Source of the DNA: Clostridia bacterium
GTDB taxonomy: Bacteria > Bacillota > Clostridia > Lutisporales > Lutisporaceae
Assembly (NCBI GenBank): GCA_035628995.1
Contig: DASPIR010000023.1
Location: 434,001 to 498,000, forward strand
Direction of reading: 5' to 3'
DNA: 64,000 bases
The notes beneath the pieces were generated by a model. The model worked only from the letters and a program-made list of their open reading frames with translations, had not been told where the DNA came from and searched no databases. Positions within the stretch are counted from its first letter, which is position 1, and every line of letters begins with the position of its first letter. The translations under genes and the position numbers were made by a program. Shown here one piece after another: positions 57,461 through 64,000 of the stretch.

Positions 57461-58639
57461 CTAAAACGCTTTCAATACTTTAGCAAGTCTTTTCATTCCT
57501 TCTACTATCTTATCATCTGGCATATTCGAATAGTTCAATCTACAGTGATTTGCATTACCGCCATTTGGATAGAAGGGTTCACCAGGTACAAATGCTACTT
57601 TCTGCTCCAAAGCTTTCTTGAGCAGCTCTGCAGCATCAATTTCCTTCGGGAATGTAGCCCATGCAAAAAGTCCTCCGCTCGGGGTAGTGTATGTTGTACC
57701 CTTTGGGAATTCTGCCCTCATGACCTCAAGCATTAAGTCTCTTCTAGTTTTGTATACTTTTTTAATTTTTTCTATATGCGCTTCGATATCATACATTTCA
57801 AGAAACTTGTCAACTTCCCTCTGAGCAATGGTGCTACACTGCAAGTCGGCACCCTGCTTGACCAGGTTATATTTATGAAGTATTTCCGGCTCAGCTATGA
57901 CCCATCCAAGTCTCAAGCCCGGCGCGAAAATCTTTGAGAAAGTTCCCAGATGAATTACAAGATTCTTTGGATCGAAGCACTTTAGCGATGGCATTATCTC
58001 GCCTTCAAATCTGAGCTCACCGTATGGATTATCTTCTATAACAGGTATCTCATACTTGGTAGCAAGCTCCATTAGACGTTTTCTTCTTTCAAGGCTTAAA
58101 GTCCTGCCTGTAGGGTTCTGGAAATCAGGAATAGTGTATATGAATTTTACATTGTTGTTCGCTGCCAAAGCTTTCTCCAAATCTTCTATTATCATCCCGT
58201 CTTCGTCCATTGGTATTTCAACGAATTTAGGCTGATAAGCTTTGAAAGCACTCAATGCGCCCAAATAGCTCGGGCTTTCACATATTACCACGTCACCCTC
58301 ATTAATGAATATTTTGCCAGAGAACTCAAGACCCTGCTGTGAACCGCTTGTCATAAGTATATCTTCAGCTTCTACATTTATTCCAAGCTTTACTGCCCTT
58401 TTAGCTATCTTTGCCCTGAGCGGCAGATAACCATCTGTTGAGCTATATTGCATTGCAGCCTTTCCGTCTTCCCGCAATACTCTGCAGCATACCTGTTCCA
58501 TTTCCTCGATAGGAAAAAGCTCAGGCGCCGGAAGTCCTCCTGCAAATGATATTATGTCTGGCTCTTCAGTAAGCTTTAGTAGTTCACGAATAGCGGATCC
58601 CTTGATGTTGTCCATTCTACTAGCAAATTTAATTCCCAT
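57461..58639 (-). CDS. PLP-dependent aminotransferase (class I/II, 2-aminoadipate-type)
   Basis: A 392-residue fold-type I aminotransferase. ISFAGGLPAPELFP near 30-43, LMTSGSQQGLEFSGKIFINEGD near 96-117, YTIPDFQNPTGRTLS near 173-187 and GTFSKIFAPGLRLGWV near 230-245 carry the PLP-binding Asn, Tyr and Lys. It resembles the LysN/2-aminoadipate and aromatic or branched-chain aminotransferases related to MocR domains, without the DNA-binding part. The exact substrate cannot be read. ATG follows GGGGGTG. It is a single gene between terminators. Confidence 0.9.
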   Translation of the reverse strand: MGIKFASRMDNIKGSAIRELLKLTEEPDIISFAGGLPAPELFPIEEMEQVCCRVLREDGKAAMQYSSTDGYLPLRAKIAKRAVKLGINVEAEDILMTSGSQQGLEFSGKIFINEGDVVICESPSYLGALSAFKAYQPKFVEIPMDEDGMIIEDLEKALAANNNVKFIYTIPDFQNPTGRTLSLERRKRLMELATKYEIPVIEDNPYGELRFEGEIMPSLKCFDPKNLVIHLGTFSKIFAPGLRLGWVIAEPEILHKYNLVKQGADLQCSTIAQREVDKFLEMYDIEAHIEKIKKVYKTRRDLMLEVMRAEFPKGTTYTTPSGGLFAWATFPKEIDAAELLKKALEQKVAFVPGEPFYPNGGNANHCRLNYSNMPDDKIVEGMKRLAKVLKAF

Positions 58640-58826: not shown

Positions 58827-59843
58827 CTAATCTATTACTACCAGCTTATTCTCCCTGAAGGATTCAGTGGCCTTATATGCTATTTCTGTGGATTTTGTCC
58901 CGTCATATACTGTAACCTCAGGTCTCCGATTCTCTAAAATGCAATTTATGAATTCCTGCTTTTCCAACAGATAGGCCTGTTCAAATCTTTCCGGAAAACC
59001 TGAGACGCATTCCTGAACTGCTCCATGCTCGTTGAATATGGTAACCAGATTCTTTTGAGGGGTAGCACCTACTCTAAGGGTACCTTTCGTACCAACGATT
59101 TCCGTTTCCACATGGTAGCCGTGAGGAGCAGTCCTCCCGGAGTAGAACATAGCCATGGTATCGTTCTTGAATTGCATTAGGGCACAGGCATTATCGCTAT
59201 CTCCGAACTGACCGAATTCCTTGTGGACATAACAACCGCCAACAGCATATACGCTCCTTGCTTCTGAGTCTAAAAACCACCTTGCAAGATCAATGTCATG
59301 TATCATCATATCGAGGAACATTCCTCCGCTTGTTGCTGCGAATTTAATAGCTCCGACTACTGCTTTCTCCGGATCCGCGCTTGTGGCTCTGAGCAAAAAT
59401 GGTTTTCCAATTGCACCCTCGTTTAACTTCTGCTTTGCGTAAGCATAGGATGGATCATACCTTCTCATAAAGCCCAGCATGAATACCTTGTCAGGATGCT
59501 TCTCCACCGCCCGCTCTGCAAGCTTGCATTCTTCAACTGTAACACCAAGGGGTTTTTCGCTAAACACATGCAATCCTGCTTCAAGAGCTGCTTCAATCTG
59601 TGCACAGTGCACCGGAGACGGCGATACTATAGCAACTGCATCCAGTTCAGCATTCCTAATCATTTCATAATAATCAGTGTAGCCATATTTTATATTCCAG
59701 CTGCTTTGTACATAATCAATTTCTTCCTTCTTAATGCTGCAGACTGCAATGAGTTCTGCGTTTGGTATCTTGAAAGCCAGATCCTCGGCATGCTTCAATC
59801 CCAATCGTCCCAAGCCTACGATGCCCATTCTTATCTTTTTCAT
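58827..59843 (-). CDS. Gfo/Idh/MocA family oxidoreductase (inositol 2-dehydrogenase-like)
   Basis: A 338-residue NAD(P)-dependent sugar or cyclitol dehydrogenase. N-terminal Rossmann GIVGLGRLGLKHA near 8-20, VSPSPVHCAQIEAAL near 75, the catalytic EKPLGV near 96-101 (Lys), and the MLDMMIHDID-like motif GGMFLDMMIHDIDLARW near 172-188 with its His/Asp. Similar to IolG and scyllo-inositol dehydrogenases. No other inositol genes are present, so the substrate is open. ATG after AAGGAGGC, 33 nt after the LacI regulator, which probably controls it. Confidence 0.87.
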   Translation of the reverse strand: MKKIRMGIVGLGRLGLKHAEDLAFKIPNAELIAVCSIKKEEIDYVQSSWNIKYGYTDYYEMIRNAELDAVAIVSPSPVHCAQIEAALEAGLHVFSEKPLGVTVEECKLAERAVEKHPDKVFMLGFMRRYDPSYAYAKQKLNEGAIGKPFLLRATSADPEKAVVGAIKFAATSGGMFLDMMIHDIDLARWFLDSEARSVYAVGGCYVHKEFGQFGDSDNACALMQFKNDTMAMFYSGRTAPHGYHVETEIVGTKGTLRVGATPQKNLVTIFNEHGAVQECVSGFPERFEQAYLLEKQEFINCILENRRPEVTVYDGTKSTEIAYKATESFRENKLVVID

Positions 59844-59876: not shown

Positions 59877-60884
59877 CTACCATTTATGCTCTTCTCTTGT
59901 TGTGCTTCTTACTATTAACTCAGGTTCTAATATGATTATTTTCGATTCCTTGTTTTCACTGTCATTGATCTCCTTTAACAGCAATTCTACAGCGCACTTG
60001 CCTATCTGACACTTTGGCTGAGCAATTGTTGTCAGCTGTATCTGCGGAAGCTTAGCATAATCTATATCATCGTATCCTACTATTCCAAGATCGCCGGGCA
60101 CAATCAGCCCGTTTTCTTCAGCACTTTGCATTACTCCGAGCGCTATCACGTCATTGCCCGAAAAAACTGCATCCGGAATATTACCGGACTTAATGAGCTT
60201 ATTCATGATCTCATAACCGCTTTTGGTCTTAAAGCTTCCATTTACAATAAGTGTTTCATCTATTTCATACTTATATCTGCTGAGTGCTTGCTTATAGCCT
60301 TCTATTCTTTTAGAATTCGTGTATGAATCAGGTTTCCCTCCTATGAAGGCAATCCTTTTGTAGCCTGATTCTATGAGATGCTTGGTTGCCAGAAATCCTC
60401 CCCGTTCATCATCTACCTCAATGCAGCTGAAGCTGTCATTCTGTGAGGTTCTATCGAGAAGTACCAAGGGGACGGTGATGTTCCCAAAATTATTCTCCGC
60501 AGAGTCAGATGCAGGTTTTAGTATTATGCCGTCTACTCTCTTCTCCTGCAGTAATTTCAAGTAAGACTGCTCCTTTTCCACATCCCAGTTTGTATTGCAT
60601 AAAAAAGTATTGTATCCATGCTCACTGGCTACATCCTCTACACTTCTTACAATTTCCGGAAAGAAAGGATTAGTTATATCAGGAATGACAAGTGCAATGG
60701 TATGTGTATACTTCATAACCAAACCCCTTGCTATTGCATTGGGCTGATAGCCCATCTTTCTTGCCTCTTCCAGCACTATTTCTCTTGTCTCAGCATTCAC
60801 CCCAGCTCTATCATTCAACGCTCTTGAAACTGTAGCATATGAAATACCAATTTTTTTTGCTATATCCTTAATTGTTACTTGCAT
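59877..60884 (-). CDS. LacI family transcriptional regulator
   Basis: A 335-residue repressor-type protein. The HTH is at residues 3-25 (TIKDIAKKIGISYATVSRAL), with hinge region GYQPNAIARGLV. The periplasmic-binding-protein-like sensor domain runs from ~60 (IALVIPDITNPFFPEIVRSV) to the end. FIGGKPDSYTNSKRIEGY and VIALGVMQSA are typical. It sits between pgk and the Gfo/Idh/MocA gene, same strand. I found no operator palindrome that I trust. Confidence 0.93.
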   Translation of the reverse strand: MQVTIKDIAKKIGISYATVSRALNDRAGVNAETREIVLEEARKMGYQPNAIARGLVMKYTHTIALVIPDITNPFFPEIVRSVEDVASEHGYNTFLCNTNWDVEKEQSYLKLLQEKRVDGIILKPASDSAENNFGNITVPLVLLDRTSQNDSFSCIEVDDERGGFLATKHLIESGYKRIAFIGGKPDSYTNSKRIEGYKQALSRYKYEIDETLIVNGSFKTKSGYEIMNKLIKSGNIPDAVFSGNDVIALGVMQSAEENGLIVPGDLGIVGYDDIDYAKLPQIQLTTIAQPKCQIGKCAVELLLKEINDSENKESKIIILEPELIVRSTTREEHKW

Positions 60885-60940: not shown

Positions 60941-62206
60941 TTACAAACTTTTAGCCCTGTCATATGCCTTCTCCATCGCCTCAATCAAAGGAAGCTTTTT
61001 CCCAGATAGGAATCTTACCATTGCTCCACCGGCAGTACAGACATAGCTTATTTTTTCAAGATTTATAAACCTCGACGCTGCGCTGACTGTGTCCCCTCCG
61101 CCTATTACTGAGTAACCCTTTGAATCAGCTATGGCATTCCAGATTTCTCTTGTGCCGTTTTCAAACAATTTGTTCTCATACACTCCGGCAGGGCCATTTA
61201 CAAAAATTGTGCCAGCCTCAGCAATTACTCTTTTATACCTCTCTATTGTCCCTGAACCAATATCCATATACAGCTCTTCCTGTGGCAGTTCAAACACAGA
61301 TAGCTCATGCCTTTCACCGTCCAATTCATAAGCCAGGTCTACAGGGACTTCTATCTTGCCGGGGTAATCCCTCAAATACTCCCTTGCAGGCTCAACATAT
61401 AGAAGCAATTCCCTATCCTTTAGAAATCCCATCTTCCTGCTGCCCAGCGCTTTTCCCATTGCCAGAAGCATAATTTCTCCGGTTATGCCGCAGGATAGTA
61501 TCTTATCTGTAGTGCCGTTTTCCAAAACCTGCTTCATCATACCGAAAGCATCAGATATTTTAGCCCCTCCAAGTACAAATATTGATGGCTTCGCCGGCGT
61601 TTTCATCACCCTGGTTAGTGCACTGTATTCCTCAATCAGCTGCCTGCCCCCTGCTGTGGGAAGAAGCTCCTGAAAAGCTACCATTGATGGAGCATTCCTG
61701 TGGGCTGCAGCAAAGGCATCATTTACGTAATAGTCCGCGAGGGGTGCTAGATTGCGCACGAGATAAGTTTCCAGCATTTCCTCAGGCTTAAGCTTTACAA
61801 CATTTTCAAAGGTAGAAATCTCCTCGGAAAGATACCTGAGGTTTCCGAGAAGGATAGCCTCCCCCTCTTTAAGATTCTTAACAGCCTCCTGAGCTGCCGG
61901 ACCCGCGACATCATCTATGTATTTCACTTGTACGCCCAAATATGCTGAAAGCTTTTCTGCATGTTCGTTCATAGGTACAAGATTCTGATAATCCAAGGTA
62001 TCTCCTTGGTGGGCAATTATAGCCAGCTTTGCACCTTTTTGCAGTATATCCCTTATAGTAGGTATACTTGCTTTTATTCTATTCTCGTTGACTATCCTTT
62101 TTGTTGAAGGATCAATGGGTGAATTGACATCCACCCTCAGAAGCACTGTCCTTCCCTTATAGTCAAATTCATCAATGGTTCTTATTTTCCCATATTTTAT
62201 TTCCAT
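60941..62206 (-). CDS. pgk: Phosphoglycerate kinase, archaeal-type
   Basis: A 421-residue PGK. RVDVNSPIDPSTKRIVNENRI near 25-45 is the substrate region. The next motif reads IIAHQGDTLDYQNLVPMNEH, with the HQG form found in archaeal enzymes rather than the SHLGRP of ordinary bacterial PGK. VNDAFAAAHRNAPSM lies near 152, FVNGPAGVYE near 329 and SVIGGGDTVSAASRF near 367. The gene overlaps gap by 10 nt, so the two are coupled. Catalysis: 1,3-bisphosphoglycerate + ADP to 3-phosphoglycerate + ATP. A standard bacterial pgk elsewhere in the genome is expected but not visible here. Confidence 0.9.
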   Translation of the reverse strand: MEIKYGKIRTIDEFDYKGRTVLLRVDVNSPIDPSTKRIVNENRIKASIPTIRDILQKGAKLAIIAHQGDTLDYQNLVPMNEHAEKLSAYLGVQVKYIDDVAGPAAQEAVKNLKEGEAILLGNLRYLSEEISTFENVVKLKPEEMLETYLVRNLAPLADYYVNDAFAAAHRNAPSMVAFQELLPTAGGRQLIEEYSALTRVMKTPAKPSIFVLGGAKISDAFGMMKQVLENGTTDKILSCGITGEIMLLAMGKALGSRKMGFLKDRELLLYVEPAREYLRDYPGKIEVPVDLAYELDGERHELSVFELPQEELYMDIGSGTIERYKRVIAEAGTIFVNGPAGVYENKLFENGTREIWNAIADSKGYSVIGGGDTVSAASRFINLEKISYVCTAGGAMVRFLSGKKLPLIEAMEKAYDRAKSL

Positions 62207-63219
62207 TTTCCTAACCCCAAATATTTATTGGTTTCTGCTACAGCTTCCAGTCTTTCTGTCTGCATTTCAAGCGCAGCCCTTATACCGTCTATTGTCTCAG
62301 GGATTGTTACGGCTTCCTGCGGGATATTGATTGCATACATGATATCATTCCCGGATTCTACTATGGACTCTTCCCACATTGCTATTTCATACATGTCCCC
62401 CCTTGGATTTCCAAGGTCTCTTGCATATCTGAACAACGAAGCGTTCCCGAGGAATCCGTCAGCAATCCTCACTACTCTTATCCTGTCATGGGTCTTAAAG
62501 GCTTCAAGAGCCATTTCCTTGGTGATTTTCTTCTTGCCGGTTGCCAATACTGTTATAATGTGTCCATGGGTTACAGGTGTGTGTACAAGTATTCCGGTTG
62601 CATCCACATGGGGCATTATTGTCATAAGATCCAATGCTTGATGGCTTGGAGCCTTATCAATCTGAAGAGCGTTAGTGAGCCCCCTATGGTAGTCACCCGG
62701 ATCTGCTACACGCCTGATTATTGTAATTGCTACTTTATCTATACCATATAGTCTGTCAAGACAATCCACCGACCTAATCAGCCCTGTGGTATTGCAGGAT
62801 GTAAGCTTTAAAAACTGTGCGCCGAGTCCTTTCTCATAATTGGCATATCCATGGAAGAATACGTCAGCTACACTGTTCTTTTCACCGCCTTGGAAGATTG
62901 CCTTCTTGTTGTACCTGGCATAAAGCTCCTTATTCATTGCACCGACTCCGGCGCTGGTGGCATCAAGCATTATATCCACTTCCTGCACCAGTTCCTCCAA
63001 AGTTCCCGAAACCGGTATGTTAAGCTCATCAAATTGACTCTTGTTATCCTGTACCGCCAGGTACAAGTTGTAGGGCATTCCTTTTTCCTTTAATGCACGG
63101 ACAGCAAGTGTAGGTGCGACATCAGCGACACCTACAAGCTTCATATCTCCTTGACTTGCCACCCCGTCGGCAAGCCTCTGCCCGATTACGCCGTATCCGG
63201 CTACTCCAACCTTTATCAT
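62197..63219 (-). CDS. gap: Type II (archaeal) glyceraldehyde-3-phosphate dehydrogenase
   Basis: A 340-residue phosphorylating GAPDH of the archaeal class. VGVAGYGVIGQRLADGV at the N-terminus is the Rossmann loop. TSCNTTGLIR near 140 holds the catalytic Cys142 in the archaeal context (ordinary bacterial GAPDH has ASCTTN). RRVADPGDYHRGL follows near 170, and HVDATGILVHTPVTHGHIIT near 208-227. I start at ATG 63219 with GGAGGT 7 nt ahead. The ATG two codons upstream touches that site. Archaeal enzymes often accept NADP+; cofactor use here is not readable with certainty. Confidence 0.9.
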   Translation of the reverse strand: MIKVGVAGYGVIGQRLADGVASQGDMKLVGVADVAPTLAVRALKEKGMPYNLYLAVQDNKSQFDELNIPVSGTLEELVQEVDIMLDATSAGVGAMNKELYARYNKKAIFQGGEKNSVADVFFHGYANYEKGLGAQFLKLTSCNTTGLIRSVDCLDRLYGIDKVAITIIRRVADPGDYHRGLTNALQIDKAPSHQALDLMTIMPHVDATGILVHTPVTHGHIITVLATGKKKITKEMALEAFKTHDRIRVVRIADGFLGNASLFRYARDLGNPRGDMYEIAMWEESIVESGNDIMYAINIPQEAVTIPETIDGIRAALEMQTERLEAVAETNKYLGLGKWK

Positions 63220-63269
63220 ATTCATACCTCCATAAAATACTTTTTTCTTCTCCCAGCTGTCAGAGCTTT

Positions 63270-63390: not shown

Positions 63391-64000
63391 TTAGATTCTT
63401 GCCATCCCGATTTCCCTGGCAGCTTTCGCAACCGCCTCTGCTACTGCCTTGCCAACTCTTGGATCAAAAGGCAGCGGGAGTATATAATCCTGTGTCAGTT
63501 CTTCATTACTTACAAGAGATGCCAGTGCCTTGGCTGCAGCAATCTTCATATGGTCATTTATATCCTTGGCTCTTACATCAAGTGCACCCCTGAAAATTCC
63601 CGGGAAAGCAAGCACATTATTAATCTGGTTTGGAAAATCTGAACGTCCGGTACCTATAACCTTGGCCCCTGCTTGCTTCGCCAAATCCGGCATAATCTCA
63701 GGTAAAGGATTTGCCATGGCAAATATGATAGGGTCCTTAGCCATGGACGCAACCATGTCCTGGGTTAATACTCCGGCGGCCGATACTCCTATAAATACAT
63801 CAGCACCGGTCAAGACATCCCTTAGTGTTCCCTTTTTCTTCTCAAGGTTGGATATCCTCGCCATAAGCTCCTTCTCAGCGTTAAGATTTTCTCTGCCTTC
63901 ATATATTGCTCCCTTTGTGTCACACAGTGTTACCTTTTTAAGACCCATGCTCATAAGAAGCTTGGTAACAGCTATGCCTGCGGCACCCGAGCCATTTACC
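63391..64000 (-). CDS. Malic enzyme, C-terminal part (5' end outside window)
   Basis: Oxidative decarboxylation of malate to pyruvate with NAD(P)+. Only the last ~202 codons are in the window. The frame is open through the right edge, so the start is missing, and an internal ATG at 63954 is not the real start. NGSGAAGIAVTKLL, at the edge, is the nucleotide-binding glycine motif. ANPLPEIMPD, GTGRSDFPNQINNVLAFPGI and RGALDVRAKDINDHMKIAAA are typical of bacterial malic enzymes. Downstream lie a gene remnant and the gap-pgk pair. Confidence 0.93.
   Translation of the reverse strand, partial: VNGSGAAGIAVTKLLMSMGLKKVTLCDTKGAIYEGRENLNAEKELMARISNLEKKKGTLRDVLTGADVFIGVSAAGVLTQDMVASMAKDPIIFAMANPLPEIMPDLAKQAGAKVIGTGRSDFPNQINNVLAFPGIFRGALDVRAKDINDHMKIAAAKALASLVSNEELTQDYILPLPFDPRVGKAVAEAVAKAAREIGMARI

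Follow-up and report, generated by a model that had tools for sequence, protein, structure and literature searches.

Inositol is a sugar alcohol of plants. Canonical myo-inositol breakdown of the Bacillus subtilis type proceeds through IolG, IolE, IolD, IolB, IolC, IolJ and IolA, and the product of IolB is 2-deoxy-5-keto-D-gluconate. Numbered from its ketose end, this acid is D-threo at C3-C4, like fructose and xylulose, which is the configuration that transketolases use. In sulfo-TK sulfoglycolysis, the ketose that transketolase cleaves has six carbons, an acidic tail and no phosphate. This is a transketolase route of sulfoquinovose breakdown (PMC10755693). For inositol we found no transketolase-type route in the open-licence literature, subscription journals and preprints lying outside the search. 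A large survey held that the lack of a core gene such as iolC possibly comes from incomplete sequence, assembly errors or frameshifts (PMC9430895). Functional evidence for bacterial type II GAPDHs was described as non-existent in a 2019 paper, which reported that a type II enzyme of Pseudoclostridium thermosuccinogenes, possibly outside the clade described here, was inactive on glyceraldehyde 3-phosphate (G3P) with NAD+ or NADP+ (PMC6543838). In human PGK, Arg65, Arg122 and Arg170 bind the 3-phosphate of 3-phosphoglycerate and His62 contacts the bridging oxygen (PMC7729029). The LarAH6 family has demonstrated malate racemase activity (KM 0.38 mM), and its role in vivo was posed as an open question (PMC7583248).

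The window analysed here, a stretch of 64,000 nucleotides from a Clostridia bacterium, carries a gap-pgk pair (Table 1) that we consider quite likely to be part of an IolC- and IolJ-independent, transketolase-type pathway of myo-inositol breakdown. The first-pass annotation had described an overlapping archaeal-class pair, with SCNTTGL in the GAPDH and HQG in the PGK, beside a malic enzyme and a LacI regulator. This description holds: both minus-strand ORFs are in place and share 10 nt (62197-62206), both motifs were found, the profiles agree, and the malic enzyme and the regulator flank the pair. The gap ORF starts at 63225, and the earlier annotation began at the second ATG (63219); it also lacked both the iolG of the window and the iol operon past the window edge. 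In profile searches the GAPDH homologue scored 406.6 bits against NF003251, 'type II GAPDH' (cut-off 185), and 299.9 bits against TIGR01546 (cut-off 232.9), and the PGK homologue scored 357.6 bits against PF00162 (cut-off 27). The closest solved relative of the latter is the archaeal PGK of P. horikoshii (2CUN, 292 bits; the next scored 203).

Table 1 Positions of the gap-pgk pair, one codon of interest and the neighbouring genes in the window.
Feature	Position	Strand	Details
Type II (archaeal-class) GAPDH homologue	62197..63225	(-)	342 aa; NF003251, TIGR01546
Archaeal-like PGK homologue	60941..62206	(-)	421 aa; PF00162
Asp69 codon of the PGK homologue, aligned with Arg65 of human PGK	62000..62002	(-)	Alignment
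Malic enzyme, fragment at the window edge	63391..64000	(-)	PF03949; whole gene 390 aa at L012:12392-13564; recurrent neighbour of the pair
LacI-family regulator, 3' of pgk, co-directional	59877..60884	(-)	PF00356/PF13377
Inositol 2-dehydrogenase homologue (IolG)	58827..59843	(-)	TIGR04380, 361.5 bits (cut-off 355)

The pair belongs to a minus-strand operon (locus L012) with the order ABC permease, iolG, xylose-isomerase-like TIM barrel, iolB, iolD, iolE, malic enzyme, gap, pgk, lacI and iolG. Its IolE (427.8 bits, cut-off 290), IolD (982.5, cut-off 715) and IolG (497.4, cut-off 355) all pass the NCBIfam cut-offs. The IolB is a divergent form that scored 110.4 bits against TIGR04378, under the cut-off of 205; the same form, 56% identical, occurs in a clostridial genome with IolC (L145). 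A perfect 16-bp LacI-type palindrome, ATGTAAACGTTTACAT, lies just upstream of the operon iolG (L012:19197). No IolC over the cut-off was detected in the whole genome (best 188.9 bits against 300), and the iol cluster of the operon has no IolJ; the genome has one class II aldolase. The operon itself contains neither a transketolase nor a malate racemase, which counts against the proposed pathway. Also in the window, an aminotransferase at 57461-58639 most resembles MocR/PdxR regulators in their aminotransferase domain and lacks the DNA-binding part.

Elsewhere in the genome, an ordinary bacterial-type gap-pgk pair, the possibility of which had been raised by the first-pass annotation, was found on contig C29 (PGK 564 bits; GAPDH 240.9 bits in PF02800). 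A second, paralogous type II pair lies on contig C28. The copies in the window (contig C23) and on C28 are identical at 285 of 342 aligned positions for GAPDH and 289 of 422 for PGK, and as they are not sisters in the tree, they are either old paralogues or separate arrivals. The C28 operon (L010, G000:C28:1-16000) encodes the tagaturonate epimerase UxaE, a zinc alcohol dehydrogenase, gap, pgk, a split transketolase, malic enzyme and LarA, along with a liv-type ABC importer. Both the N and C chains of the transketolase match NF004559, each being half a protein and scoring under the full-length cut-off, and for the N chain the closest solved structure is the split-chain transketolase 6YAK. The LarA is a LarAH6 malate racemase (NF052593, 600.7 bits, cut-off 500); a second one, at 600.5 bits, is encoded apart from the type II GAPDH loci (L134, G000:C33:261648-262877). 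Since UxaE takes the place of iolBDE beside the C28 copy, the gap-pgk module may also serve substrates besides inositol. The same genome encodes one more type I GAPDH-like protein, divergent and 417 aa long (L013, G000:C23:594000-603000).

The C28 operon and the adjacent iolG had led us to propose, before other neighbourhoods were inspected, that the pair acts on malate semialdehyde which a transketolase makes from 2-deoxy-5-keto-gluconate, and that iol genes might be found near it elsewhere. We then clustered the ORFs of 86 related loci (type II GAPDH is hereafter called GAP2). The companions were PGK (80 loci), IolE (39), LarA (39), IolD (38), the C chain of transketolase (34), IolB (30), the N chain (29), IolG (27) and malic enzyme (23), and the pair occurs in both gene orders, PGK-GAP2 and GAP2-PGK. 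At three loci (L057, L071 and L080), GAP2, PGK and malate racemase are accompanied by pyruvate/acetoin dehydrogenase-like components that replace the transketolase, with E1 and E2 assigned by profile in L080 and by sequence in L057 and L071. Two further loci, L142 (G185) and L118 (Opitutaceae), have GAP2-PGK-LarA by aldolase-like/PfkB-like genes and a zinc dehydrogenase, or by an altronate/galactarate dehydratase; iol genes do not adjoin the trio at either.

At the genome level, IolE was present in 28 of the 393 genomes of the class. GAP2 was found in 11 of these 28 and IolC in 13, and none had both (Fisher p=7e-5, uncorrected for kinship). A malate racemase over the cut-off occurred in all 11 GAP2 genomes and in none of the 13 with IolC, and over all 28 genomes the association of GAP2 with the racemase had a Fisher p of 6e-7, likewise uncorrected for kinship. 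Kinship alone does not explain the pattern, since two families (f1 and f41) hold both the GAP2 and the IolC types. In three of the four remaining genomes with IolE, the iol cluster includes genes for a transaldolase and for an acylating aldehyde dehydrogenase; that of the fourth has neither iolD nor iolB. The transaldolase-family gene (PF00923) and the aldehyde dehydrogenase lie inside iolC-less clusters (L136 in G057, L139 in G084 and L137 in G142); the dehydrogenase of L136 is of the CoA-acylating type (TIGR01722, 584.9 bits, cut-off 448.5) and that of L137 is SauS-like. These three clusters probably encode a transaldolase route giving malonate semialdehyde.

A total of 40 genomes, four of which duplicate genomes of the class, were reached via GAP2 loci; 36 of them had IolE over the cut-off and none had IolC, against a base rate for IolE of 28/393 in the class. 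Some observations count against the proposed pathway: 4 of 41 GAP2 genomes lack IolE, and several spirochaete LarA proteins score under the LarAH6 cut-off. The pair is separated from iol genes in 14 genomes, where it stands among unrelated housekeeping genes, and five of these genomes have no full-length malate racemase over the cut-off, which also counts against the pathway. As a possible refutation, we considered whether the pair might constitute the only glycolytic enzymes of these 14 genomes and rejected this, as a canonical PGK is present in 13 and IolE in all 14; among all GAP2 genomes, 40 of 43 additionally have a PGK of at least 464 bits. In general, the comparative genomics strongly supports a link of the pair to IolC-free inositol breakdown.

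Alignment of the GAPDH homologue to 2CZC, 1CF2 and 1B7G showed that the catalytic Cys (in SCNTTGL) and the equivalent of M. fervidus His219 are conserved. Residue 35 is Lys in the archaeal enzymes and Asp in 99% of the bacterial type II GAPDHs, and by Rossmann-fold rules this replacement predicts that the homologue uses NAD+. The suggestion of the first-pass annotation that the pair might supply NADPH is not borne out by this residue, and we dropped such a role. For the PGK homologue, the position of human Arg65 holds a non-basic residue (mostly Asp or Ser, otherwise Gly or Asn) in all 76 aligned bacterial relatives, which retain the equivalents of Arg122, Arg170, His62, Asn25 and Lys219; the solved PGKs in the alignment have Lys or Arg at this position. 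Of the three basic residues for 3-phosphate binding, the homologue thus has Arg122 and Arg170, with Arg65 replaced. Such a pocket is as would be expected for a singly charged carboxylate. We propose that the GAPDH homologue is an NAD-dependent phosphorylating dehydrogenase of (R)-3-hydroxy-4-oxobutanoate (D-malate semialdehyde), and that the PGK homologue may be a D-malate kinase whose reaction, at the C1 carboxylate, would be malyl phosphate + ADP to D-malate + ATP.

In the proposed pathway, IolG, IolE, IolD and IolB, whose families are all encoded here, would convert myo-inositol to 2-deoxy-5-keto-D-gluconate by the textbook route. The split-chain transketolase would then move C5-6 of this acid to a sugar-phosphate acceptor, and the cut would leave OHC-CHOH-CH2-COO- in the D configuration, that is, free (R)-3-hydroxy-4-oxobutanoate. 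This aldehyde would be an isostere of G3P in which CH2-COO- replaces CH2-O-PO3. The type II GAPDH homologue would oxidise it with NAD+ to malyl 1-phosphate, and the PGK homologue would make ATP from ADP with this phosphate group and release D-(R)-malate, the acid expected from oxidation of the (R)-aldehyde. With D-malate as the product and an L-specific malic enzyme, a racemase would be needed, and a racemase gene travels with the pair. A nickel-dependent enzyme of the malate racemase family would thus convert D-malate to L-malate, and a member of the malic enzyme family would yield pyruvate and CO2. The route would spend no ATP on IolC and form no malonate semialdehyde. The window operon would cover the steps of the four Iol proteins, the GAPDH and PGK homologues and malic enzyme, with the split transketolase and one racemase supplied from C28 and the other racemase from C33.

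The first-pass annotation had read the pair as an alternative triose-phosphate module. It would then be a genuine second GAPDH and PGK, working on triose phosphates during inositol growth or gluconeogenesis. The homology and the conserved catalytic residues fit such a role, and xylulose 5-phosphate made by the transketolase would feed triose phosphates. However, the inositol operon around the pair has no iolC, the same genomes hold canonical gap and pgk, the exclusion with IolC is perfect, and one of the three arginines for the 3-phosphate is lost in 76/76 PGKs. The inactivity of the P. thermosuccinogenes enzyme on G3P points the same way, though its clade may differ, and there would be no explanation for the malate racemase and malic enzyme that constantly accompany the pair. 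We therefore regard this role as decidedly unlikely and rejected it as the main reading.

The pair could also act in an IolC-free inositol route on another C3-C4 aldehyde, such as glyceraldehyde without a phosphate or hexuronate-derived tartrate semialdehyde, with malate arising otherwise. The UxaE and zinc alcohol dehydrogenase of the C28 operon are in keeping with this, as is the weak epimerisation of tartrate by malate racemases of the LarA superfamily (PMC11770544). Malate, however, is what both the racemase and malic enzyme act on, and because the IolB product is a 2-deoxy acid, the transketolase cut would yield malate semialdehyde rather than tartrate semialdehyde, so that we think this alternative rather unlikely. 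Chance clustering of a mobile archaeal-like pair that hitch-hikes with inositol genes and shares no function with them would suit the patchy distribution, but the association spans several phyla with differing gene orders, and the IolC exclusion and the racemase co-occurrence hold at the genome level even if the genes are unlinked; this explanation appears very improbable.

Type II GAPDH was over the cut-off in only 4 of 99 relatives. In the GAPDH tree, 76 bacterial type II GAPDHs from Clostridia, Chloroflexi, Spirochaetes, Synergistaceae and Opitutaceae form one clade far from the archaeal sequences, the outgroup being three structure sequences with very long branches. The window GAPDH groups with two clostridial MAGs (support 83). 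Culturable carriers of the pair include Clostridium magnum, Flexilinea flocculi, Caloramator quimbayensis and Lucifera butyrica. A single bacterial clade at such a distance suggests that transfer was probably between bacteria. The patchy occurrence is in keeping with the first-pass annotation, and there is no indication that the pair was recently acquired from archaea.

Taken together, a kinase-free transketolase pathway for inositol probably operates in bacteria of several phyla (Clostridia, Chloroflexi, Spirochaetes). Two new enzyme activities, a phosphorylating dehydrogenase of D-malate semialdehyde and a kinase of D-malate, would in that case have evolved from archaeal-class GAPDH and PGK. 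If so, to our knowledge this PGK homologue would be the first enzyme of its family with a substrate besides 3-phosphoglycerate, and the bacterial type II GAPDH would gain a function. LarAH6 would gain a physiological role in serving inositol-derived D-malate, and iol clusters without iolC, now taken as incomplete or mis-assembled (PMC9430895), would be explained. With the transaldolase variant, there would be three cleavage styles of inositol breakdown, paralleling sulfoglycolysis.

Compared with the archaeal type II GAPDH (TIGR01546/NF003251) and PGK (2CUN), the window pair shares the families and keeps the catalytic residues, whereas it has Asp for Lys at residue 35, a non-basic residue at the Arg65 position and an inositol operon around it; its substrate is predicted to differ from theirs. 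The C28 LarA falls in the same equivalog family as the LarAH6/Mar2 malate racemase. The upper steps to 2-deoxy-5-keto-D-gluconate are the same as in the canonical iol pathway, whereas in the present genome, without an IolC over the cut-off or an IolJ in the cluster, the lower half would be substituted by transketolase, the GAPDH and PGK homologues, malate racemase and malic enzyme. As in sulfo-TK sulfoglycolysis, a transketolase would cleave an unphosphorylated C6 ketose with an acidic tail; in contrast to that pathway, the substrate would be a 2-deoxy-ketohexonate, and the resulting C4 aldehyde would be oxidised with substrate-level phosphorylation by the GAPDH and PGK homologues.
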